22,848 nt of DNA. It comes from Clostridia bacterium. Lineage in GTDB: Bacteria; Bacillota_A; Clostridia; Oscillospirales; UBA929. Where the stretch lies: positions 1 through 22,848 of the forward strand of contig BNZR01000019.1 in NCBI GenBank assembly GCA_026001245.1. The letters are read 5' to 3'. The notes under the pieces are model-generated. The model was given only the letters and a program-made list of their open reading frames with translations. It did not search any database and was not told where the DNA came from. Positions 2,539 to 17,368 of the stretch are shown here, one piece after another (the stretch's first letter is position 1; each line of letters opens with the position of its first letter). The position numbers and the translations under genes are program-made.

Positions 2539-4257
2539 GTGCCGTTGTTGCTGGGGAATGAGGCCGTTGCGCGGGGACTTTACGAGGCGGGGTGCGCCTT
2601 TGTGTCGTCCTATCCGGGTACGCCGAGTACTGAAATTACTGAATTTGCCGCCCGCGAGCTGTACGCGGAGTGGGCGCCTAACGAAAAGGTCGCGCTGGAG
2701 GCCGCGTTCGGCGCGAGCATGTCCGGGGCGCGGGCGTTTTCGGGCATGAAGCATGTGGGATTGAACGTCGCCGCCGACCCGTTGTTCACGGCCGCGTACA
2801 CGGGGGTCAACGGAGGACTGGTTGTGGCCGTAGCGGACGACCCCGGCATGCATTCGTCCCAAAACGAGCAGGACAGCCGTCACTACGCCGAGGCCGCGAA
2901 ACTGCCCATGCTGGAGCCGTCGGACTCCGAGGAATGTCTGACATTCACCAAGCTGGCGTTCGAGCTGTCGGAACGGTTCGACACGCCCGTGCTGTTGCGC
3001 CTGACCACCCGCGTGTCCCACAGCAGAGGGGTTACGCGGTTGGGGCAGAAGTTCGAGGGCGAGCGCAAAGCCTATGCCAAGGACGCGTCCAAATACGTGA
3101 TGGTACCCGCCAACGCCCGCCGCCGCCACGCGGCGGTGGAGGAGCGATTGGTCGAGCTGGGCAACTATTGCGAAACCGCCGAGATAAACAAAATCGAGTG
3201 GGGCAGCAAGCGCAAAATCGGCGTGGTTGCGGCGGGGATCGCCTATCGTACTGCCCGCGAGGCGTTGGGGGACGAGGTTAGCTACCTCAAGCTGGGCATG
3301 GTGTATCCATTGCCCGTGGGGGCGATAATCGAGCTGGCCGAAGCGGTGGACGAGCTGTGGGTGCTGGAAGAGCTGGACGATTTTATCGAGACGCACTGCA
3401 AAAAACACGGCATAAAGGTTCGCGGAAAAGCCGATTTGTCGCCGCTGGGCGAATACGCGGTGGAAAATCTGCGGCAAATTATACTTAATGTTCAGAAAAA
3501 AGGCGGAGAACCGCAGTCGGACATACCCGCAAGACCTCCGGCACTCTGTCCGGGCTGTCCGCACAGGGGCGTGTTCTTTGTTTTGAACAAGATGAACTTC
3601 ACGGTGTTTGGCGACATCGGATGTTACACCTTGGGAGCCGCGCCGCCGCTTAACGCCATGGATATGACGCTGTGCATGGGCGCGTCAATCGGCGCGTTGC
3701 ACGGATTTTTAAAGGCCAACCCCGCCGCCGCCAGCCGCGCAGTCGCGGTGATTGGCGACAGCACGTTCATACATTCGGGGCTGACGGGCTTGGTAAACAG
3801 CGTGTACAACAACACAAACTCGACGGTTATTATTGTGGACAACTCCATCACGGGCATGACCGGGCATCAGCAGAACCCCGCCACGGGCAGGACGCTGTTG
3901 GGCGCGTTCGCCCCCGCGCTGGACTTGGAAACGGTCTGCCACGCGCTGGGGATAGCGCAGGTTAGCGTAATTGACCCCGGCGATTTGTCACTGCTGGAGA
4001 AAACCATACGCAACCACACGTTGCTTGACGCGCCGTCGGTGATTATCGCCCGGTCGCCCTGCGTGCTGTTGCCGGGGGTGGAGCGCAAGGAGCCGCCGAA
4101 GGTTGCGGACTGTAAAAACTGCAAATTTTGCATGAAGCTGGGCTGTCCCGCGCTGGTGTCTTTGGAAAAACGCGTGGCTATAGATGAATCGTTGTGCGTG
4201 GGTTGCGGATTGTGCGCGAAGCTGTGCCGTTTTGACGCTATCGGAGGTGCGGAATGA
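2539..4257 (+). CDS. iorA: Indolepyruvate:ferredoxin oxidoreductase, alpha subunit
   Basis: The product is the catalytic subunit of IOR, which oxidatively decarboxylates aryl-2-oxoacids (indolepyruvate, phenylpyruvate, hydroxyphenylpyruvate) to aryl-acetyl-CoA with ferredoxin as acceptor; the reaction is reversible in anaerobes. Visible features in order: N-terminal pyrimidine-binding domain with GNEAVARGLYEAG and SSYPGTPSTEI, a central transketolase-C-like domain, the CPGCPH cluster near residue 337, the TPP site GDIGCYTLG near 358 and IGDSTF near 405, and a C-terminal ferredoxin-like domain with cysteine clusters near 525 (CKNCKFC) and 553 (CVGCGLCAKLC). The length of 572 residues is close to the usual ~580-600. 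The start is GTG 2539 with AGAGGGGGC at 2524-2532. It is the first gene of its operon and overlaps iorB by four bases. Confidence 0.95.
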   Translation: MPLLLGNEAVARGLYEAGCAFVSSYPGTPSTEITEFAARELYAEWAPNEKVALEAAFGASMSGARAFSGMKHVGLNVAADPLFTAAYTGVNGGLVVAVADDPGMHSSQNEQDSRHYAEAAKLPMLEPSDSEECLTFTKLAFELSERFDTPVLLRLTTRVSHSRGVTRLGQKFEGERKAYAKDASKYVMVPANARRRHAAVEERLVELGNYCETAEINKIEWGSKRKIGVVAAGIAYRTAREALGDEVSYLKLGMVYPLPVGAIIELAEAVDELWVLEELDDFIETHCKKHGIKVRGKADLSPLGEYAVENLRQIILNVQKKGGEPQSDIPARPPALCPGCPHRGVFFVLNKMNFTVFGDIGCYTLGAAPPLNAMDMTLCMGASIGALHGFLKANPAAASRAVAVIGDSTFIHSGLTGLVNSVYNNTNSTVIIVDNSITGMTGHQQNPATGRTLLGAFAPALDLETVCHALGIAQVSVIDPGDLSLLEKTIRNHTLLDAPSVIIARSPCVLLPGVERKEPPKVADCKNCKFCMKLGCPALVSLEKRVAIDESLCVGCGLCAKLCRFDAIGGAE

Positions 4258-4820
4258 CTAATATTTTGATTGTCGGCGTGGGCGGGCAGGGCAGTCTGTT
4301 GGCCAGCAAGGTGCTTGGCAGTGTGTTTTTACAGCAGGGGCTGGACGTTAAGGTCAACGAGGTGCACGGCATGTCCCAGCGCGGCGGCTCGGTCGAGACC
4401 ACCGTCCGCGCCGATAGCAAAACCGTGCAGTCGCCGCTGATACCCGATGGCGAGGTGGATATTCTGATCGCGCTGGAGCGGCTGGAGGCGTTGCGCTACG
4501 CGCACACGCTGTCGCCCAACGCCGCCGCGCTGATTAGCACACAGCGTATCGCGCCGATGCCGGTGCTTACCGGGGCGGCGAGCTATCCGGAGTACGAGAG
4601 CTTGAACGCGAAGACGGTTTTTGTTGACGCGTTGGGGCTGGCGCGGCAGGCGGGCAGTGTTAAGGCGGCGAATATCGTCATGCTGGGCGCGGCGGCGAGG
4701 TTTATCGGGGCGAAGGACGAGCTGTGGCAGATTGCCTTGGCGGAATGTGTCAAGCCGAAGCTGTTAGAGATAAACCGCGCGGCGTTTAATCTAGGGAAAA
4801 ATGGAGTGGGAGAAGAATGA
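4254..4820 (+). CDS. iorB: Indolepyruvate:ferredoxin oxidoreductase, beta subunit
   Basis: This is the gamma-domain partner of IorA and belongs to the 2-oxoacid:acceptor oxidoreductase gamma family. It opens with the dinucleotide-like motif GVGGQGSLLASKVLG and carries the NEVHGMSQRGGSV segment typical of IorB. At 188 residues it has normal length. IorA and IorB together form the working enzyme that links aryl-2-oxoacids to aryl-acetyl-CoA and reduced ferredoxin in the cytoplasm. Its start overlaps the iorA stop by four bases (ATGA), and its stop overlaps the start of the phenylacetate-CoA ligase gene in the same way, so the three proteins are probably made in coordinated amounts. Confidence 0.95.
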   Translation: MTNILIVGVGGQGSLLASKVLGSVFLQQGLDVKVNEVHGMSQRGGSVETTVRADSKTVQSPLIPDGEVDILIALERLEALRYAHTLSPNAAALISTQRIAPMPVLTGAASYPEYESLNAKTVFVDALGLARQAGSVKAANIVMLGAAARFIGAKDELWQIALAECVKPKLLEINRAAFNLGKNGVGEE

Positions 4821-6118
4821 GTGACAGATACTGGAACCGCGAGGCCGAGACCATGCCCCGCGAGGCTCTGCGTGATTTGCAGGGCAAAAGACTAATCGAG
4901 ACCGTGGAGCTGGCCTACAACAACGTCAAAACCTATCGCGACCGTATGAACGAGCAGGGCGTTCTGCCCGGCGACATCAAAAGCATAGACGACATAGTAA
5001 AACTGCCGTTTATGTACAAAAACGACCTGCGCGACAACTACCCCTACGGCATGTTCGCGGTACCCATGAGCGAGGTTGTGCGGATTCACGCCTCCAGCGG
5101 CTCGACAGGCAAGCAGACGGTTGTGGGGTACACCCGTGGCGACCTTGACGTGTGGCACGAGGGCATGGCGCGAAGCATGACAATGGCGGGCGTTACCAAG
5201 GACGACCTTGTGCATGTGTCCTACGGCTACGGGCTGTTCACGGGGGGACTGGGCGGCCACTACGGCGCGGAGACCATCGGCGCGACGACGATCCCCGTGT
5301 CCACGGGCAACACCCAGCGGCAGTTGCAGATTATGGAGGACTTCGGCTCGACGGTGCTGTTGTGTACGCCGAGCTACGCCATGCTGCTGGGCGACGCGGT
5401 GGTGGAGCAGAAACGCAACATCAAGCTGCGCGTGGGGCTGTTCGGCGCGGAGCCTTGGACGGAGAACATGCGGCGTGCTATCGAAGAGCGGCTGAAGATA
5501 AACGCGTTTGATATTTACGGCCTGTCGGAGATCAGCGGGCCGGGCGTTGCCAACGAGTGCGGCCACAAAAACGGACTGCATGTTTGGGAGGATCACTTCT
5601 ACCCGGAGATTATCGACCCGGACAGCGCGGATAGCCTGCCGGACGGCACGCGGGGCGAGCTGGTGTTCACCTGTCTGACCAAGAAGGCGTTGCCGCTGAT
5701 ACGCTATCGCACCCGGGATCTAAGCACTCTGCGGCGCGATGAGTGTCCCTGCGGCCGCACGGCGGCGCGTATGGACAAGCCCACGGGACGCAGTGACGAC
5801 ATGCTGATTATCCGCGGCGTGAACGTGTTCCCCTCGCAGATTGAGGGCGTTTTGCTGAACTACAAGCAGATTTCGCCCCACTACGTGATTGTGGTGGACC
5901 GCGTGAACAACACCGACAGCCTAGAGGTGCAGGTGGAGATGTCCGAGGCGTTGTTTTCGGACAATGTGCGCTCTATCGAAAACGCCGAGCGGCTGATTCG
6001 CAGGGATGTTGAGAACACCTTGGGGCTTTCGGCAAAAATTCGGCTGGTTGAGCCGCGCACAATCGCCCGCAGTGAGGGCAAGGCCAAAAGGGTTATCGAC
6101 AACAGAGTGCTATTATAG
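4817..6118 (+). CDS. paaK: Phenylacetate-CoA ligase (AMP-forming)
   Basis: This is a 433-residue adenylate-forming ligase of the PaaK family, which makes phenylacetyl-CoA (or a related aryl-acetyl-CoA) from the free acid, ATP and CoA. The phosphate-binding loop SSGSTGKQTVVGYT lies near residues 93-106. DIYGLSEISGPGVANEC near 232-248 is the family's A5-like motif. RSDDMLIIRGVNVFPSQIE near 328-346 contains the hinge, and AEGKAKR-like sequence (RSEGKAKRV) near the end carries the C-terminal lysine. Next to iorAB the pair can run in two directions: aryl-acetyl-CoA from amino-acid breakdown used for ATP, or activation of aryl acids for reductive carboxylation to aromatic amino acids. The sequence does not decide the direction. 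Four-base overlap with iorB; 11 bases to the ACT gene. Confidence 0.95.
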   Translation: MSDRYWNREAETMPREALRDLQGKRLIETVELAYNNVKTYRDRMNEQGVLPGDIKSIDDIVKLPFMYKNDLRDNYPYGMFAVPMSEVVRIHASSGSTGKQTVVGYTRGDLDVWHEGMARSMTMAGVTKDDLVHVSYGYGLFTGGLGGHYGAETIGATTIPVSTGNTQRQLQIMEDFGSTVLLCTPSYAMLLGDAVVEQKRNIKLRVGLFGAEPWTENMRRAIEERLKINAFDIYGLSEISGPGVANECGHKNGLHVWEDHFYPEIIDPDSADSLPDGTRGELVFTCLTKKALPLIRYRTRDLSTLRRDECPCGRTAARMDKPTGRSDDMLIIRGVNVFPSQIEGVLLNYKQISPHYVIVVDRVNNTDSLEVQVEMSEALFSDNVRSIENAERLIRRDVENTLGLSAKIRLVEPRTIARSEGKAKRVIDNRVLL

Positions 6119-6129
6119 GAGGGGCAAAT

Positions 6130-6543
6130 ATGCTGAATCAAATTTCCGTATTTGTGGAGAACCGCCCCGGCAGGCTGGCCGAGATTATCGACATTATATC
6201 CACGGCGGGCGTGAATATCCGCGCCCTTAGCATCGCCGACACCGCCGATTTCGGGATTCTGCGCCTGGTGGTTGACAAGCCCGGCGAGTGCCGAGCCGCG
6301 CTGAAAAACGCAGGGGTCACCGCCAAAATCACGCCCGTAATCGCGGCGCGTATGGACGACAAGGCCGGGTCGCTGAACAAAATCCTGTCCGTTTTGAGCG
6401 TAAAGGGGCTGGACTTGGAGTATGTATACGCGTTTTTGGGATTAACGGACGGCGCGGCCACGCTGGTTATAAGCGCGGCGAAGATTGAGGACGCGGCGGC
6501 CGCGCTGACCGCCGCCGGGGTCGAGCTTATTGAAAACGCTTGA
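6130..6543 (+). CDS. Tandem ACT-domain protein
   Basis: The protein has 137 residues made almost entirely of two ACT domains, roughly 4-68 and 70-136. The first begins with the classical ISVFVENRPGRLAEIIDII pattern and the second with ARMDDKAGSLNKILSVL. ACT domains bind amino acids and act as allosteric sensors. Free-standing tandem ACT proteins are commonly encoded beside paaK and ior genes in anaerobic bacteria, where they probably sense an aromatic amino acid, but the ligand and target are not established. A GGAGG ribosome binding site lies just upstream of ATG 6130. The 3' end overlaps the next reading frame by 14 bases. Confidence 0.9.
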   Translation: MLNQISVFVENRPGRLAEIIDIISTAGVNIRALSIADTADFGILRLVVDKPGECRAALKNAGVTAKITPVIAARMDDKAGSLNKILSVLSVKGLDLEYVYAFLGLTDGAATLVISAAKIEDAAAALTAAGVELIENA

Positions 6544-11689: not shown

Positions 11690-12301
11690 TTGAAATACGC
11701 ACTTGTAACGGGCGCGTCACGCGGGATTGGCAGGGCGTGCGCCGAGCTGTTCGCGCAGAACGGCTATACGGTCTACGCGGGCTTTCTAAACACGCCGATT
11801 GCCCCGCGTGAGCATATAATTCCGATACAATTTGACGTGGGGCGCGCCTGCCCGGCGTTGGACGTGGACGTGCTTGTAAACAACGCGGGAATCGCGCTTA
11901 TAAGGCCGATAAACATGACTACCGAGGACGAGTGGGACAGGATTATGGCGGTCAATTTGAAATCCGCATACATCTGCGTTAATGCGGTGTTGCCGCATAT
12001 GATTAAGCGCAAAAACGGCGCGATTATAAATATCTCCTCGCGGTGGGGCTTGGTGGGCGCTTCCTGCGAGGTGGCGTATTCCGCGTCCAAGGCCGGGCTT
12101 ATCGGGTTTACCAAGGCCTTGGCCAAGGAGCTTGAACCCAGCAATATCCGCGTAAACGCGGTCGCGCCGGGGGCGGTGGACACGGACATGAACCGGGGAC
12201 TGGATTTGAGCGATTTCCGCGTTATCCAGCCAGAGGAGGTTGCCAAAGCCGTGCTGGATTTGGCGCACGGCTCCGGCACCGGGACGGTGGTCGAGCCTTA
12301 G
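11690..12301 (+). CDS. Short-chain dehydrogenase/reductase, FabG/YmfI-like, compact
   Basis: This is a classical-SDR NAD(P)-dependent oxidoreductase. It has the cofactor motif TGASRGIGRA near residue 8, VNNAG near 63, the catalytic Ser in NISSRWG and the YSASK dyad (Tyr and Lys) near 129-133, then a VAPGAVDTDM segment. I start it at TTG 11690, eight bases after GGGAGG; the upstream in-frame TTG at 11642 lies inside the promoter. The protein is 203 residues against the usual ~240-250. It is short between the cofactor motif and NNAG and lacks the C-terminal GQVxxVDGG strand, ending at GTGTVVEP. It could be a reduced but working family member; the substrate is unknown. The last four bases overlap the end of the convergent ligase fusion. 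Confidence 0.85.
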   Translation: MKYALVTGASRGIGRACAELFAQNGYTVYAGFLNTPIAPREHIIPIQFDVGRACPALDVDVLVNNAGIALIRPINMTTEDEWDRIMAVNLKSAYICVNAVLPHMIKRKNGAIINISSRWGLVGASCEVAYSASKAGLIGFTKALAKELEPSNIRVNAVAPGAVDTDMNRGLDLSDFRVIQPEEVAKAVLDLAHGSGTGTVVEP

Positions 12302-14877
12302 GCGGTCTGGACTTTCGCGTCCTCGCCAAGCCCAAGCAGTTCAATGCTTTCGGCCACCATTTTGTACTTTAGAATCTTGCCCGCCGCGTTCATGGGGAAC
12401 TCCTCGACAAAGCGGACGTATTTCGGAACCTTGTGGCGGGCCATGTGGTCAAGCACGAATTGCTTTATCTCGTCCTGCGTACTCTGCACGCCCTCGCGCA
12501 GGATAACCCACGCCATAATTTCCTCGCCCAAGGCGCTGTCGGGTACCCCGATAATCTGCACGTCCTTGACCTTTTCGTGGGTGTAGATGAAATCCTCAAT
12601 CTCTTTGGGGTAGATGTTCTCGCCGCCGCGAATAATCATGTCTTTAATGCGCCCCGTTATCTTGAAGTTGCCGTCGGGCAGACGCAGAGCCAAGTCGCCG
12701 GTGTGCAGCCAGCCGTCTGCGTCTATCGCGGCGGCGGTGGCGGCGGGCATTTTGTAATAGCCCTTCATGATGTTGTAACCCCGCGCCACGAATTCGCCGG
12801 GTGTGTTGTCGGGCAACGGTTCATAGGTCACGGGGTCGATAATGCGGCACTCTACGCCCGGCAGGTTCGAGCCTACGGTGTTTACCTTGACCTCTATGCT
12901 GTCGTCCGCGGTGGACATGGTACAGCCGGGCGAGCTTTCGGTCTGGCCGAATACGATTGTTATCTCGCGCATGTTCATTTTGTCGATAACCTCGCGCATG
13001 ACCTTGACGGGGCAGGGACTGCCCGCCATGATACCCGTGCGCATGTGCGAGAAGTCGGTATTGGCGTAGTCGGGGTTTTTCTCCATGGTTTCCAGCATGG
13101 CGATAAACATTGTCGGAACGCCGTTGCACGCGGTTATGCGCTCGCGGTTTATGCAATCCAAGCTTAGGCGGGGGGAGAACGCGGGGATGGGACACATGGT
13201 CGCGCCATGGGTCATGCTGGCCGTCATGGACAGCACCATGCCGAAGCAGTGGAACATCGGGACGTGTATCAAAAAGCGGTCGGCGGTGGACAGATCCATG
13301 CGGTCGCCTATGTTTTTGCCGTTGTTGACCACGTTGTAATGCGTAAGCATAACGCCCTTGGGGAAGCCCGTTGTGCCGGAGGTGTACTGCATGTTGCACA
13401 CATCATGGGTGCGCACGTGGGACGCGTACTCGGCCAGAACGTCCGCCTCTACGTCGTCGGCGCGTTTAAGTGCGTTTTTCCAGGTGTAACAGCCCTTCTG
13501 CGCCGAGCCGATCTTAATTACGTTGCGCAGACGGGGCAGACGCTCGCTGAACAGCTGCTCGCCCGGCTCGACCGTGGCAAGCTCCGGGCATATCTCCTTG
13601 ATAATCGCGGTGTAGTCGCTGTCCTTGAAGTTGTCCGACATTACAAGCGTGTGCGTGTCGGACTGGCGCAGGAGGTACTCCGCCTCTTGAATCTTGTAGG
13701 AGGTGTTAACCGTAACCAGCACCGCGCCGATTTTAACCGCCGCCCAAAACGTGATGAACCATTCGGGCAGGTTGGGCGCCCAAATCGCAACGCGATCCTT
13801 TTTGCGCACGCCCAAGGCTATCAGCGAACGGGCAAATCTGTCCACATCGTCGCGGAACTGGCGGTAGGTGCGCGTGTAGTTAAGCATGGTGTAGCGGAAC
13901 GCGTATTGGTCGGGGAAGTGGGCGATAACGCGATCCAGAACCTCCGGCAACGTGCTGTCGATTAACTGCTCCTTTTTCCAGAAAAACTTGCCCGTTCCGG
14001 CGCGGTTGTTAAACAGCAACGGCTCGTCCTCGAAGTATTCGGAGTAGTTATCCACCATGTGGCGCATGAAGTCCTTGATGGGCATGTCGGAATCGTCCTC
14101 ATGCCCCAGCCATTCAAACGACACGAACCCGTCAAACGAGATGGAGCTTAGCGCAAGCATTGCGTCCTTGATGGGAATGTCGCCCTCGCCCATAAGGCGG
14201 TAGGCCTCGCCGGGGCGTTTGTATATATCCTTGCGGGACTCGCCCGCTTTGGGGCTTACGCTGTCCCGCAGATGTACGTATTTTATCATGGTGCCTAGGT
14301 TATCCACGGTTTGCTCCGGGGTTTCGGGATTTTGCTGATGGAAGGTGTGGTCAATGTCCCACAACGCGCCGACTACGTCACTGCGGAATCCGGTCAAAAG
14401 CTTGCGCAAACGCTTGGTATCGCTGTAAATCCCCTTGGTTTCGACCAGTAAAGTCACCTTTTTGGCCTCGGCGTAGGGGACTAGCTCGTCAAGGGTTTCG
14501 ATAAGCGCGGTGTCGTCGTCGCCATACTTGGTGTAATCGTCGATTTGCAGGCGCACGTAGGGACAGCCCAGGCTTGCCGCGGTGTTGATGTAGTTGCGCG
14601 CCTCCTCGCGGAACGCCTTTTGACTTTTCAGGCTTGTTATCTGCTTGCCGACCGTTTTTACGCTTTTGCCGATGGAGAAGCAGGTAAGCCGCAGTCCCAT
14701 GCGAAGCAGTTCCTGCCGCGTGGACACGCTGTTGTTTTTAAGGAATTTTGCGTAGGTGAGCGCATCGGACCCCAGGTCGCGAACCTCGAACCCCGCAAAG
14801 CCCTCCTCACGCGCCAGCGCGCAGGTTTGCTCCCAGTTCTTGCGCGGACAGCCGATTGTTGAAAACGCGATTTTCAT
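12298..14877 (-). CDS. Fusion: TIM-barrel sugar isomerase/epimerase domain + acyl-CoA synthetase
   Basis: This single 859-residue frame joins two enzymes. Residues ~1-280 form an AP-endonuclease/xylose-isomerase-like TIM barrel beginning MKIAFSTIGCPRKNW. Its likely metal ligands are all present: Glu ~146 (LLVETKG), Asp ~174 (WDIDHTFHQ), His ~202 (YVHLRDS) and Glu ~255 (FEWLGH). Residues ~300-859 are an AMP-forming fatty-acyl/medium-chain acyl-CoA synthetase: phosphate loop YTSGTTGFPKG near 500, GQTESSPG near 647, the hinge RIKDMIIRGGENIYPKEIE near 745, and the catalytic C-terminal Lys in NAAGKILKYKM near 833. Both halves look active. AGGAGG sits seven bases before ATG 14877. Expression is preceded by a T-box leader at 14907-15114. 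The acyl substrate and the TIM-barrel substrate cannot be read from sequence. Confidence 0.92.
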   Translation of the reverse strand: MKIAFSTIGCPRKNWEQTCALAREEGFAGFEVRDLGSDALTYAKFLKNNSVSTRQELLRMGLRLTCFSIGKSVKTVGKQITSLKSQKAFREEARNYINTAASLGCPYVRLQIDDYTKYGDDDTALIETLDELVPYAEAKKVTLLVETKGIYSDTKRLRKLLTGFRSDVVGALWDIDHTFHQQNPETPEQTVDNLGTMIKYVHLRDSVSPKAGESRKDIYKRPGEAYRLMGEGDIPIKDAMLALSSISFDGFVSFEWLGHEDDSDMPIKDFMRHMVDNYSEYFEDEPLLFNNRAGTGKFFWKKEQLIDSTLPEVLDRVIAHFPDQYAFRYTMLNYTRTYRQFRDDVDRFARSLIALGVRKKDRVAIWAPNLPEWFITFWAAVKIGAVLVTVNTSYKIQEAEYLLRQSDTHTLVMSDNFKDSDYTAIIKEICPELATVEPGEQLFSERLPRLRNVIKIGSAQKGCYTWKNALKRADDVEADVLAEYASHVRTHDVCNMQYTSGTTGFPKGVMLTHYNVVNNGKNIGDRMDLSTADRFLIHVPMFHCFGMVLSMTASMTHGATMCPIPAFSPRLSLDCINRERITACNGVPTMFIAMLETMEKNPDYANTDFSHMRTGIMAGSPCPVKVMREVIDKMNMREITIVFGQTESSPGCTMSTADDSIEVKVNTVGSNLPGVECRIIDPVTYEPLPDNTPGEFVARGYNIMKGYYKMPAATAAAIDADGWLHTGDLALRLPDGNFKITGRIKDMIIRGGENIYPKEIEDFIYTHEKVKDVQIIGVPDSALGEEIMAWVILREGVQSTQDEIKQFVLDHMARHKVPKYVRFVEEFPMNAAGKILKYKMVAESIELLGLGEDAKVQTA

Positions 14878-14906
14878 GTGATTTCCTCCTGATTTTTCGG
14901 GAAACG

Positions 14907-15114
14907 AAAAAGCTTCATCTCCCGTAACAAAATTACAAGAGACGAAGCTGTAAGCTCCGCGGTACCACTCTTATTGGAGCGCCTTCCGCGCCCCCACTCG
15001 TTGAGGATAACGCTCAAGGGTGAGCGCAAACCCGCCGCCGCGCACCGTTTCTCACCAACCAACGGCTCTCTGTGACGCTTAAGTCGAATTGCTTATGCCT
15101 ATCATCGCGATTTG
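14907..15114 (-). promoter_or_regulatory. T-box riboswitch leader, specifier best read as CUC (Leu)
   Basis: Read on the minus strand this is a complete T-box. Stem I starts at GATGATAGG (15106-15098), carries AGAGAGCCG plus the GGTGAGAAACGG distal loop (15071-15046), and returns through CACCCTTGAG. By alignment with the glyQS pattern of codon, then A, then three bases, then TTGAG, the specifier is CTC at 15024-15022. The T-box motif GAGTGGTACCGCGG is at 14970-14957, inside antiterminator arms GCTCC (14980-14976) and GGAGC (14958-14954). The UGGU bulge predicts discriminator A73, as in tRNA-Leu. The competing terminator pairs 14949-14939 with 14921-14911 (11 bp, one G-T) before a T-run. Uncharged tRNA should allow read-through into the downstream fusion gene. 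T-box identity is very secure; the codon is moderately so. Confidence 0.93.
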
Positions 15115-15120
15115 TTTGTT

Positions 15121-15149
15121 AGGATAACATATTCGCGGCGGTTTGTCAA
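15121..15149 (-). promoter_or_regulatory. Promoter of the T-box leader
   Basis: On the minus strand TTGACA (15149-15144) is followed after 17 bases by TATCCT (15126-15121). The -35 box and the spacer up to base 15128 lie inside the 46-bp direct repeat, while the -10 box lies outside it. The start of transcription should be near 15114, directly before stem I of the T-box. Confidence 0.75.
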
Positions 15150-15173
15150 TAGAAGTTGGGAGATTTATTTTTT
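15128..15173. repeat. 46-bp direct repeat, copy A
   Basis: The repeat begins CATATTCGCGGCGG and ends GATTTATTTTTT. It is identical over all 46 bases to 16576-16621 in the same orientation, 1448 bases away. Copy A touches the stop codon of the LRR gene on one side and contains the -35 box of the T-box promoter. Confidence 0.97.
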
Positions 15174-16537
15174 TAGTTTTTCACTTTGCGCGTGATAAAT
15201 ATACCGCCGCCAGCCAGTAGCAGGATAAGCAGGGCGATTAGAGCAACGGACGTGTCGCCCGTTTTGCTGTTCTTGCTTGTGTCGGAACTTGTTTCTGTGC
15301 CGGGGTTCGGCGAGGGGCTAGGCGTTGAGGTGTCAGCGGCAAGCAATTTCACGCCGAGGGGAATCGCGATAGCCGCACCCGCTTTATCCACAAACTTCGC
15401 TTGGAATTTGGTGGTTTCGCCGTCTTTCAGGTCGTATTTTTTAAGTGCCGCAGGCAACAGTTTGATGACTGTCGAGCCGGAAACCACGGTGTAGTCAACG
15501 TCTTTAACCAGCACAACCAACTCGCCGTCCACGATTATGTACAAGTTGTCAAACGCGGACAGCGGTATGTCGATCGCGAAAGTAACCGCCGTGTCGGATT
15601 TGACCTCTTTTTCAAGACTGTCGCCGCCTTTAGCGTAAGCATCAGCGGCGTTTGCGATTTCATCGCCGCTTTCGTTTTGACCGACAACCCATTCGGTAGC
15701 GGTGTTGGGTTCTTCGTCAGGCAAGGCAACTATCGCGTTTTCTGTGACGTACTGGGGCGCGAAGCTATAGTCACCCGTAATCTTGTTTTTATTAAGCCCT
15801 GTAATCGCGGCTTCTGAAGATAAATAGTTATGATTGCAGTAAAGCTCCGCAAGTTTGTCGTTCTTAGACAGATCCAACTCTGTAAGTTGGTTGTGGTCAA
15901 TGTAGAGGGACTCCAACGCGGTGTTTTTGGATACGTCAATCTTGGGCAGTTCGTTGTAGCGGAAGTTTATACGCGTTAAAGCTGTGTTTTTGGACACATC
16001 TATTGTTTTTAGTTGGTTGAAAGAACCGACAAGGTCTGTCAGTGCAGTGTTCTTGGAAACGTCCAGCACGGGCAGTTCGTTGTGGAAGAGCCAAAGGGCT
16101 GTCAACGCGGTGTTTTTGGACACGTCAAGTTTTGTCAGCGCGTTGTTGTCAGCCTCAAGCCGTGTTAACGCGGTGTTCTGGGACAGATCCAACTCGGTAA
16201 TCTCGTTAAATGAGCAGTATAGCTCTGTCAGTCCGGTGAAATACTCAATGCCGCTTAGGCTGGAGATCTCCGCCCAAGTTACATCAAGACCGTCAATGCC
16301 GGCGACATCGGTGTCGTAGATTGTGTCCTTATCCAAAAGCTCCAAAACTATCGCCTTGAAGTTTGGATCAGTAAATTTGGCGGTGATGTCTGTTCCGTTG
16401 GCAACAGGCGGATCAACGCTGTCCGCCGCAAATGCGGGGACGTTCACGGATAGCGCGAGAGTTAGCATTAAAATCAGCGCGAGGAGCTTACAAAATTTTC
16501 CACAGGGGGGGGGGGGGGTAATTTTTGCCTTTTTCAT
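15173..16537 (-). CDS. Secreted, wall-anchored leucine-rich-repeat protein
   Basis: The start is ATG 16537 with GGAGG eight bases upstream; the longer frame upstream of it overlaps the promoter. The 454 residues comprise a signal peptide ~1-37 (Lys-rich start, hydrophobic core, AFA cleavage site), a unique segment, and seven 21-residue leucine-rich repeats at ~103-245 built on LTxLxxxxNxLxxLDVSKNTA. An X2-like immunoglobulin-fold segment follows at ~330-400 (SAFDNLYIIVDGELV, YTVVSGSTVIKLLP), then a Ser/Thr/Pro spacer, a sorting-like motif NSKTGD at ~423-428, a membrane helix and a basic tail RKVKN. It is probably displayed on the cell wall by a sortase or held by the helix; the ligand is unknown. 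A C14 tract encodes Thr7 to Pro11, so expression may switch. No terminator separates it from the T-box promoter downstream. Confidence 0.88.
   Translation of the reverse strand: MKKAKITPPPPCGKFCKLLALILMLTLALSVNVPAFAADSVDPPVANGTDITAKFTDPNFKAIVLELLDKDTIYDTDVAGIDGLDVTWAEISSLSGIEYFTGLTELYCSFNEITELDLSQNTALTRLEADNNALTKLDVSKNTALTALWLFHNELPVLDVSKNTALTDLVGSFNQLKTIDVSKNTALTRINFRYNELPKIDVSKNTALESLYIDHNQLTELDLSKNDKLAELYCNHNYLSSEAAITGLNKNKITGDYSFAPQYVTENAIVALPDEEPNTATEWVVGQNESGDEIANAADAYAKGGDSLEKEVKSDTAVTFAIDIPLSAFDNLYIIVDGELVVLVKDVDYTVVSGSTVIKLLPAALKKYDLKDGETTKFQAKFVDKAGAAIAIPLGVKLLAADTSTPSPSPNPGTETSSDTSKNSKTGDTSVALIALLILLLAGGGIFITRKVKN
15853..16231 (-). repeat. 63-bp tandem repeats encoding the LRR units
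   Basis: About six 63-base units encode the 21-residue LRRs. The segment for LDVSKNTAL is nearly the same in each (GTGTTTTTGGA on the plus strand recurs), while the codons for the exposed face vary. This pattern fits array growth by unequal crossing-over or slippage. Confidence 0.8.
16505..16518. repeat. Homopolymer G14/C14 tract at the 5' end of the LRR gene
   Basis: Fourteen uninterrupted G on the plus strand, i.e. C14 in the coding strand, cover part of codon 7 and codons 8-11 of the LRR gene. With 14 bases the frame is open; 13 or 15 would shift it before the signal-peptide core. Tract length is also the position most exposed to sequencing error. Confidence 0.95.
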
Positions 16538-16568
16538 GGGTATACCTCCAAAAAATAAATTTGTGAGT

Positions 16569-16597
16569 ATTGTAGCATATTCGCGGCGGTTTGTCAA
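16569..16597 (-). promoter_or_regulatory. Promoter of the LRR gene
   Basis: On the minus strand TTGACA (16597-16592) and TACAAT (16574-16569) are 17 bases apart. The -35 box and nearly all of the spacer belong to repeat copy B, exactly as in copy A for the T-box promoter, but here the -10 is a better match. The leader is about 25-30 bases and carries the GGAGG site. Confidence 0.85.
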
Positions 16598-16621
16598 TAG
16601 AAGTTGGGAGATTTATTTTTT
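16576..16621. repeat. 46-bp direct repeat, copy B
   Basis: This is a perfect second copy of 15128-15173. It lies between the divergent LRR and antitoxin promoters, ending one base before the antitoxin -35 box. The bases beyond both ends differ from those around copy A. Confidence 0.97.
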
Positions 16622-16622
16622 A

Positions 16623-16651
16623 TTGACACAACAGGTCTTTTACGATATAAT
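16623..16651 (+). promoter_or_regulatory. Consensus promoter of the toxin-antitoxin pair
   Basis: TTGACA at 16623-16628 and TATAAT at 16646-16651 match consensus fully, with a 17-base spacer. It is back to back with the LRR promoter, with 25 bases between the two -35 boxes. I see no clear operator palindrome. Confidence 0.88.
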
Positions 16652-16688
16652 GAAAGTACAATTAAAACAAACTATTAGGAGGTTAGCT

Positions 16689-16967
16689 ATGGATATTCAG
16701 TTATCCACGTTAAAGACCAATCCGGCAAAGTATTTCGACCTAGCTAAGTCTTTTGACATCACAGTCACAAGGCGCGGCAAAATACTTGGGCGTATCATAA
16801 GCGAGGAAAAAGCGGCGGATTACGAGAAGCGAAAAGCGTTTGACGAGCTGATGGCGTTTTCCAAGCTACCGTCCGGCTTGCCGGAAGAATACCGCGACCC
16901 GAATTACGACCCGAACTACGACCTGCTGCGCGAGGCGGCATACCGAGACAGGGGGCTTTTGGAATGA
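16689..16967 (+). CDS. Type II antitoxin, Phd/YefM-like
   Basis: The product has 92 residues from ATG 16689, with GGAGG at 16678-16682. The N-terminal half (IQLSTLKTNPAKYFDLAKSF, then VTRRGKILGRIISE) fits the Phd/YefM DNA-binding fold, with the typical strand-turn RRGK. The C-terminal half is charged, holds the repeat RDPNYDPNYD, and should be the flexible arm that blocks the toxin. Its stop overlaps the toxin start by four bases (ATGA), the usual antitoxin-first, coupled arrangement. Autorepression by the complex is expected from the family. The family assignment is by pattern only. Confidence 0.82.
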   Translation: MDIQLSTLKTNPAKYFDLAKSFDITVTRRGKILGRIISEEKAADYEKRKAFDELMAFSKLPSGLPEEYRDPNYDPNYDLLREAAYRDRGLLE

Positions 16968-17368
16968 TAGTGGTCTTTGACAACAACATAATAATAGACG
17001 CGCTTGAACCGCGCCCGCACTACGAGACACAGGCAAAGGAGCTTTTAAGGCGCGTTATGACGAACAAGATTGAGGGGTACGTTGCCGCCAGTAGCTTAAC
17101 CGATATATTTTATGTGCTAAGCAAAAAGGCGGGAGAGGAAAACGCAAAGGCCGCGACCCAAAATATCGCAAATTTGCTTGAAGTTGTTGACGTGTTGAAG
17201 TCTGATTGCAAAGCCGCGTTTAGTCTGCCGATGACGGACTTTGAGGATGCGGTGGTTGCGGTTTGCGCCAAGAAAGTCGGCGCGGACTGCGTAGTGTCAC
17301 GCGATGAGAAATTTATAAAAGCGAACAGCGGGGTTAGGGTGGTTAAGCCCGACGCGCTGGTTGGGTAG
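16964..17368 (+). CDS. PIN-domain toxin ribonuclease, VapC-like
   Basis: The 134-residue protein is one PIN domain. Candidate metal-binding acids are Asp6 (VVFDNNIIIDAL), the Asp in SSLTDIFYVL, the DFEDAV acids near 86-89 and the Asp in VVSRDEKF near 109-110. PIN toxins of type II systems cut RNA, often tRNA or rRNA, when the antitoxin is degraded. It is paired with the Phd-like antitoxin by a four-base overlap. The stop lies ten bases from the convergent GH13 stop and no terminator is visible between them. Confidence 0.88.
   Translation: MIVVFDNNIIIDALEPRPHYETQAKELLRRVMTNKIEGYVAASSLTDIFYVLSKKAGEENAKAATQNIANLLEVVDVLKSDCKAAFSLPMTDFEDAVVAVCAKKVGADCVVSRDEKFIKANSGVRVVKPDALVG

Follow-up and report, generated by a model that had tools for sequence, protein, structure and literature searches.

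The window, that is, the whole 22,848-nucleotide stretch of DNA that was analysed, carries on its minus strand an open reading frame (14877..12298) for an 859-residue fusion protein, in which a TIM barrel is joined to an AMP-forming acyl-CoA ligase, as judged from the frame itself, from matches to PF01261, PF00501, and PF13193, and from relatives. Between a promoter and the ATG of this frame at 14877 lies a T-box leader RNA on the same strand, this being matched by RF00230 at 15114..14935 (cmscan, 81.8 bits, E-value of 3.5e-18) over model positions 1–219 of 219, with the stem II region deleted. The promoter is of the sigma-70 type (TTGACA-17-TATCCT; 15149..15121, minus strand) and agrees with the consensus at 10 of 12 positions in a consensus scan. 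Within the leader, the register of the Rfam alignment places the specifier CUC (leucine) in the internal loop of stem I (15024..15022, minus strand), and CUC or CUG likewise occurs in 36 related leaders. The antiterminator, AAGAG(UGGUACC)GCGGAGC...GCUUCGUCUCUU (14972..14937, minus strand; Rfam alignment and covariation over 20 T-boxes), contains a UGGU bulge (14967..14964, minus strand; Rfam alignment). There is also an intrinsic terminator (14949..14901, minus strand), whose 18-pair stem (14949..14911) and ensuing U run were recognized by folding, by consensus scan, and by reading of the sequence, the last of which also gave a ribosome-binding site, AGGAGG (14890..14885, minus strand), 7 nt 5' of the ATG. 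The first-pass annotation had described a full T-box directly before the fusion gene with a UGGU bulge, and both its placement and the bulge proved correct. As for its completeness, stem I, the T-box motif, the antiterminator, and the terminator are borne out by the cmscan match along the full model length, by the fold, and by the scans, but stem II is deleted, and ‘full’ was therefore too strong a word.

In assigning the leader to its RNA class, we found both the T-box sequence and an antiterminator with a UGGN bulge (AGAGUGGUACCGCGG), and the window T-box is a new member of this known class. The Infernal search with RF00230 that had been suggested beforehand returned the T-box with CUC in register and, by E-value, as the only match in 14700–15300, while a default cmscan at the Rfam gathering score gave no match anywhere in the window. 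Here, the score of the window T-box lies below the gathering score of 93, which is a search threshold and not a structural feature, and which is reached by 10 of the 14 relatives whose T-box immediately precedes the ligase, including L070 and L075. None of the 40 model positions in the stem II region is occupied by a base in the window alignment; stem II is also missing from glyQS-type T-boxes, and we did not treat it as defining. Folding of the leader (14878–15149) gave −101.5 kcal/mol (z of −4.26), with none of 200 shuffles being as low. Moreover, consensus scans revealed two promoter-like sites and two terminator-like sites, against 0.4 expected for each, and among these are the promoter and the terminator of the T-box. 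On reading the sequence, the 3' arm of the antiterminator is also the 5' arm of the terminator, and the two structures are therefore mutually exclusive. Over 20 T-boxes, the antiterminator pairing holds in 93.3% of cells (78.1% in shuffles) and falls to 48–59% when the partners are slid, with double-sided changes in 9 of 12 pairs and a covariation score matched by none of 500 shuffles. As the structure was taken from the same alignment, this covariation mainly confirms the known T-box fold.

For comparison, the window was set beside 80 related loci, six of which have less than 700 nt of upstream DNA. A first motif scan, covering 700 nt upstream in 76 of the 80 loci, gave 17 matches, comprising 14 T-boxes and three matches with two mismatches (L010, L021, and L043), the latter being rejected because they did not look like T-boxes at that position. 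A covariance model (R1) was also trained on the T-box cores of 15 leaders belonging to the same ligase and of five others; a match was thus assured for these 15, whereas the remaining 22 matched without having been used for training. The 22 T-boxes that stand before a leuA-like gene were missed by the motif scan and found by R1, which brings to 36 of the 80 the loci where a T-box precedes the ligase or its operon (14 directly before the ligase and 22 before the leuA-like gene). One R1 match with an E-value of 0.56 (L024) was left out of the count. With the window included, all 37 leaders have a leucine specifier (31 CUC and 6 CUG), and the CUC claimed earlier for the window does stand at the Rfam specifier columns, these being the three columns before ‘A-CCCU’. 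Specifiers were read by a rule that counts nine bases in the 5' direction from the GAGC strand in stem I and takes the triplet that begins there. Wherever more than one candidate for this strand existed, it was settled by visual inspection, as a script gave an ambiguous or misplaced 3' strand for several leaders, e.g., L001, L019, L022, L030, L066, L048@8718, and L082. All 37 leaders have UGGU in the T-box, including that of L012, where the script had picked an earlier UGGC in stem III.

Closer to the specifier, the S-turn letters AGUA/GAA are replaced by AGCA/UGC in the window T-box, and with this noncanonical S-turn the specifier call draws on the 3' register and on its conservation among relatives rather than on the usual GAA. 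In L001, the nearest relative in the tree, the stem II region is present and the specifier lies in an identical GCGCUC. Among control leaders from carrier genomes in which a T-box directly precedes leuA (L085 and L087–L090), four of the five are leucine by the rule, while L085 is one base off by the rule and has CUC at the Rfam specifier columns. L086, whose T-box lies 3.5 kb before leuA and is Ile by eye, was left out of this control, and no T-box motif was found in the leuA controls L093–L095. In L025, a gene that is ValS-like by reading is preceded by a T-box with GUC by eye. The counts exclude L091, L092, L109 (another UUC leader), and L110, a G004 T-box some 7 kb upstream of VorB. We consider it very unlikely that the window T-box has lost its function and is a decaying relic: the loss of stem II, the altered S-turn, and the score under the gathering threshold would suit such a relic, yet the leader retains a promoter, a specifier, an antiterminator, a terminator, and a ribosome site, and R1 gives the window core 56.6 bits, the third of 50 matches (the window being in the R1 training set). 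Separately, we observed a tRNA-Ala(GGC) gene inside the T-box leader of L080 (5793–5868; Desulfotruncus alcoholivorax DSM 16058), where it occupies the site of stem III ahead of the antiterminator.

As for the protein, the ligase domains (residues 315–834; 13935..12376, minus strand) score 310.3 bits for PF00501 and 61.1 bits for PF13193, against Pfam cut-offs of 29.9 and 24.5, and the window protein belongs to the AMP-forming acyl-CoA ligase superfamily. When the full-length protein was compared with the PDB, the first 60 matches listed were adenylate-forming enzymes, acyl-CoA ligases among them. The best NCBIfam match of the ligase part is PRK12583 / NF009233 (‘fatty acid CoA ligase family protein’) with 683.6 bits, which misses the cut-off of 832; the window ligase, which differs further in its fusion to a TIM barrel, thus looks like an AMP-forming acyl-CoA ligase and is not filed as a PRK12583 member.

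We consider it likely that the leucine-specific T-box governs a CoA ligase whose role is to activate isovalerate as a precursor of leucine. T-boxes turn on their genes in response to a shortage of the amino acid. Here, uncharged tRNA-Leu (GAG anticodon, A73) would build up and pair through its anticodon with the CUC specifier and through its 3' end with the UGGU bulge, upon which the antiterminator would beat the terminator and the ligase gene would be transcribed. The ligase would convert scavenged isovalerate to isovaleryl-CoA, a ferredoxin-dependent 2-oxoacid oxidoreductase (VOR, possibly IOR) would carboxylate this to 2-oxoisocaproate, and a branched-chain aminotransferase would then yield leucine. 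Antitermination, isovalerate as the substrate, and its reductive carboxylation, with the direction of the oxidoreductase that this implies, are steps that we infer. It is extremely unlikely that the ligase and the ferredoxin oxidoreductases instead run oxidatively for energy in amino-acid fermentation, as a T-box turns its genes on at amino-acid shortage and not at abundance. In Clostridium, OFOR genes that neighbour acyl kinases or ADP-forming ligases have been linked to oxidation, but AMP-forming ligases favour acyl-CoA synthesis, as was argued for the Bacteroides IOR, and an IOR beside an AMP-forming ligase was argued to serve biosynthesis (PMC13285125).

The chemistry that we propose for the ligase and its partners has a physiological precedent. 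In ruminococci, leucine is made from isovalerate by carboxylation (Allison 1962, 1966, as cited in PMC7356843), and rumen bacteria convert isobutyrate to valine, phenylacetate to phenylalanine, and isovalerate to leucine (Allison 1962, 1966; Allison and Peel 1971; Allison 1965, cited or listed in PMC7356843). The predicted chemistry is the same, but whereas the ruminococcal isovalerate pathway is known as physiology (PMC7356843), we propose candidate genes and their control. The fusion gene is thus a testable candidate for a pathway reported from rumen bacteria in the 1960s.

Recurring neighbours of the ligase gene lend support to the leucine-linked acid salvage that the first-pass annotation had suggested, this being seen in the gene row of L012, in the VOR of L084, in the leuS of L080, and in the specifiers of the sister ligases. 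In L012, the row consists of a T-box (CUC), a leuA-like gene, the fusion, ilvE (TIGR01123, 419.1 bits, cut-off of 250.05), a P-loop gene (by reading), VorB (NF005507, 537.0 bits, cut-off of 399), and the beta and gamma genes. VorB and ilvE are located just upstream of the T-box, leuA-like gene, and fusion in L030, while VorB lies downstream of these three in L022. The order in L084 is P-loop, VorB (540.9 bits, NF005507), beta, gamma, XRE, MbcS-like, XRE, MbcS-like, Leu T-box, and fusion, with the small genes assigned by reading. In L066, OFOR alpha and beta genes come after the ligase, with an opposing and possibly spurious ORF in between, and in L080 the T-box and ligase are followed by leuS (TIGR00396, 1146.7 bits, cut-off of 548.4). 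Such rows bear on the main rival to isovalerate salvage for leucine, namely that isovaleryl-CoA is scavenged as a primer for iso-branched membrane fatty acids, with leucine being sensed as its usual source. MbcS of Staphylococcus aureus does scavenge isobutyrate and 2-methylbutyrate for lipids (PMC10026030), but the VOR and branched-chain aminotransferase genes behind the Leu T-box and fusion in L012, the leuS of L080, and the PaaK genes with Phe T-boxes (with iorAB in L081), where a fatty-acid primer makes little sense, lead us to regard the lipid explanation as improbable. Less easily reconciled with our scheme is the NifJ-type PFOR, rather than a VOR, after the ligase in L053 and, by reading, in L025, L033, L040, L042, L049, and L059. 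As a further neighbour, an Amidohydro_2 protein comes after the fusion in L017 (8520–9335, by Pfam) and, by reading, in L030, L031, L033, L050, L058, L070, and L071.

Several findings count against the isovalerate reading. By R1, 44 of the 80 loci have no T-box before the ligase, among a set in which six have less than 700 nt upstream. The same row as in L012, with an XRE-cupin and MbcS-like ligase in addition, is found in L027, but the T-box is missing; neither in this operon nor in that of L029, both with ilvE and VOR, was a T-box found by R1 or by Rfam at an E-value of 0.01, and the same searches gave none in L016 and L018. Moreover, the scanned ORFs of the window include no VOR, BCAT, or leu genes, only iorAB-paaK. 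In L057 (Ruminococcus flavefaciens ATCC 19208), the fusion gene lacks a T-box match, and T-boxes are present before an XRE-MbcS-like ligase (AUC) and a leuA-type gene (CUC). In a ligase tree of 77 rows, T-box carriers make up 6 of the 10 rows of a basal, mostly barrel-free clade, 22 of the 44 rows of a leuA-like clade, and 9 of the remaining rows, and this spread argues that the T-box association is old or was repeatedly kept.

With regard to genome content, VorB is above cut-off in 16 of 17 genomes versus 3 of 14 control genomes, and IOR alpha in 28 of 32 versus 2 of 14. In contrast to a complete loss of the classical leucine pathway in all carriers, an idea that we rejected, leuB is above cut-off in 13 of 32 genomes; leuA (TIGR00973) is so in 8 of 32. 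Among the 14 T-box genomes (G001, G002, G004–G008, G010–G012, and G014–G017), leuB is above cut-off in only five, and the salvage route thus need not be the only leucine route. No leuA match at all was found in G001 and G016. As the weaker leuA matches include full-length genes with their own T-boxes (L087–L089), and as most of the genomes are possibly incomplete MAGs, the absence of leuA is not to be overread.

The TIM-barrel domain (residues 20–262; 14820..14092, minus strand) has a common sugar epimerase/isomerase fold, which does not tell its substrate, and a search by sequence against the PDB at an E-value of 0.001 gave no match. Residues Glu146, Asp174, His177, His202, and Glu255 are nearly invariant. 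The scheme gives the barrel no role, and this, too, counts against the isovalerate reading. In 24 loci, an ORF of 400–560 residues with a shared segment ends somewhere from 150 bases upstream of the fusion start to 60 bases within the fusion (e.g., L027:4589–6004, with 23 further related loci). By tblastn, this LeuA-like gene lies between the T-box and the fusion in 22 of the 22 second-group loci, while 12 of the 24 genes have no T-box match before them. RDGEQ and HxH are catalytic and metal motifs of LeuA. On alignment with four true LeuA proteins, all of which have both motifs, RDGEQ is absent and HxH is broken in 24 of 24 LeuA-like proteins, that of L056 having kept the first His of HxH. 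The C-terminal domain retains its GDG segment, which is GNG in two of the LeuA-like proteins and in one true LeuA, and PF08502, the LeuA allosteric/dimerisation domain, scores 107.8–109.8 bits in the three proteins scanned (cut-off of 24.9). A dead LeuA with a leucine-binding domain, encoded next to the ligase and in many cases itself under a Leu T-box, suggests a catalytically inactive leucine sensor for the ligase, though this is a guess made from sequence.

The barrel and the LeuA-like gene also raise the prospect that the ligase acts on some other leucine-related acid (e.g., 2-oxoisocaproate, 3-methylcrotonate, or a product of the TIM-barrel or leuA-like protein) in an undescribed leucine route, which we think quite unlikely. 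While the barrel is fused to or adjacent to the ligase in most loci with its putative metal site kept, and the leuA-like gene precedes many fusions, the same family includes Leu T-box ligases with no TIM barrel in the stretch examined (L053, L066, L073, L078, and L080), and the motif losses in the LeuA-like proteins speak against a product of theirs.

We then compared the leucine-type ligase with sister CoA ligases, using an RF00230 search of 17 genomes, which were mostly chosen as carriers of Leu-type T-boxes, and whose counts therefore describe carriers and not bacteria at large. T-boxes before MbcS-like ligases are Ile or Val in 20 of 20 cases (16 AUC, 3 GUA, and 1 GUC), these places being 9 of 25 matches in 8 of the 17 genomes along with 11 places in related loci. 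The ligase part is seen behind 18 of the 20, and in the other two (L048@8718 and L050@13569) the DNA ends after the XRE part and before the ligase part. The nine T-box ligases of the 17 genomes score 391–493 bits against an NF047394 cut-off of 850, and ‘MbcS-like’ thus denotes resemblance and not membership. MbcS-like ligases with T-boxes are often fused to an XRE-cupin regulator; as an observation in its own right, single proteins of about 770–800 residues that combine the two occur under Ile or Val T-boxes in L050, L052, L054, L062, L102, L106, L107, and L108, as judged by Pfam for L050, L052, and L102, and by ORF length, start, and partly BLAST for the others. In PaaK operons, four of five T-boxes are UUC (Phe), these being located shortly upstream of a PaaK-type ligase in G004, G008, and G012, and upstream of an iorA-iorB-PaaK-ACT row in G015. 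The fifth, L083 (G017, contig C10), is GCC (Ala) by the rule, against the Phe pattern, and is followed by Lrp-like, aminotransferase, paaK, iorA, and iorB genes (by reading of ORF starts). A reading of the L081 iorAB-PaaK leader as Val was dropped, as the rule gives Phe. The T-box of a VOR operon in G008 (L082) is AUC by eye. Counting against the isovalerate reading, a T-box is close by in only 9 of 25 MbcS-like and 4 of 28 PaaK matches in the 17 genomes. Nonetheless, as far as the specifiers tell, the supported pattern is that sister-ligase T-boxes mostly name the amino acid expected from the likely acid of the ligase.

MbcS of S. aureus is, like the proposed window ligase, an ATP-dependent acyl-CoA synthetase scavenging branched short-chain acids, but it prefers 2-methylbutyrate and isobutyrate, takes isovalerate poorly, and feeds lipids (PMC10026030), whereas the window ligase is closest to PRK12583. 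Given the poor use of isovalerate by MbcS (PMC10026030), a Leu-type ligase would fill a gap, and the Ile and Val T-boxes on MbcS-like ligases match this. More broadly, and with somewhat less than an even chance of being right, the T-box specifiers may mark a regulon of CoA ligases feeding ferredoxin-dependent reductive carboxylation, with one type per amino acid, and with the dead LeuA gating the Leu ligase as a leucine sensor at the protein level. The TIM-fused ligases would then serve isovalerate and leucine, the XRE-cupin MbcS-like ligases 2-methylbutyrate and isoleucine or isobutyrate and valine, and PaaK with IOR phenylacetate and phenylalanine. In many carriers, leucine would control its own salvage both via tRNA and via an allosteric pseudoenzyme.

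Were this so, the CoA ligases of acid salvage and the ferredoxin oxidoreductases would join the T-box targets, and with the T-box on each CoA ligase naming the end product, the substrate of an orphan ligase would become a prediction. T-boxes of leuA (Geobacter; leaders L087–L090) share with the window a stem I, a CUC or CUG specifier, a UGGU bulge, and an antiterminator/terminator, but their target is 2-isopropylmalate synthase and not a CoA ligase, and the window copy lacks stem II. The Geobacter leuA T-box has been predicted to read tRNA-Leu(GAG) (PMC2700814). In a search whose scope left the main T-box surveys (Vitreschak 2008, Gutierrez-Preciado 2009) outside, we found no paper linking such ligase genes or T-boxes to the conversion of isovalerate and related acids to branched-chain amino acids by rumen bacteria, and the main text on S. 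aureus MbcS does not mention the T-box (PMC10026030). Likewise, the code from specifier to ligase (Leu, Ile, Val, and Phe) with its T-box target was not found in the literature searched, and earlier mentions may exist.

Elsewhere in the window, related chemistry for aromatic acids is indicated by a second gene row on the plus strand (2539–6543), likely for the conversion of phenylacetate to phenylalanine. This consists of iorA, the indolepyruvate:ferredoxin oxidoreductase alpha subunit (2539..4257; TIGR03336, 679.8 bits, above the cut-off of 650.9), iorB, the beta subunit (4254..4820; PF01558, and NF005325 with 210.9 bits against a cut-off of 230), a phenylacetate-CoA-ligase-like gene, PaaK (4817..6118; TIGR02155, 558.5 bits, missing the cut-off of 646.3), and an ACT-domain protein after paaK (6130..6543; PF19571 and PF01842). 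No T-box core was found before this row, and a promoter-like TTGACA/TATAAT is present by reading. The gene order is the same as in the Phe T-box operon L081 of another genome. On the plus strand at 16323–17368, we also noticed a Phd/YefM-like antitoxin (below the Pfam cut-off) followed by a PIN-domain protein, which are likely a toxin-antitoxin pair.
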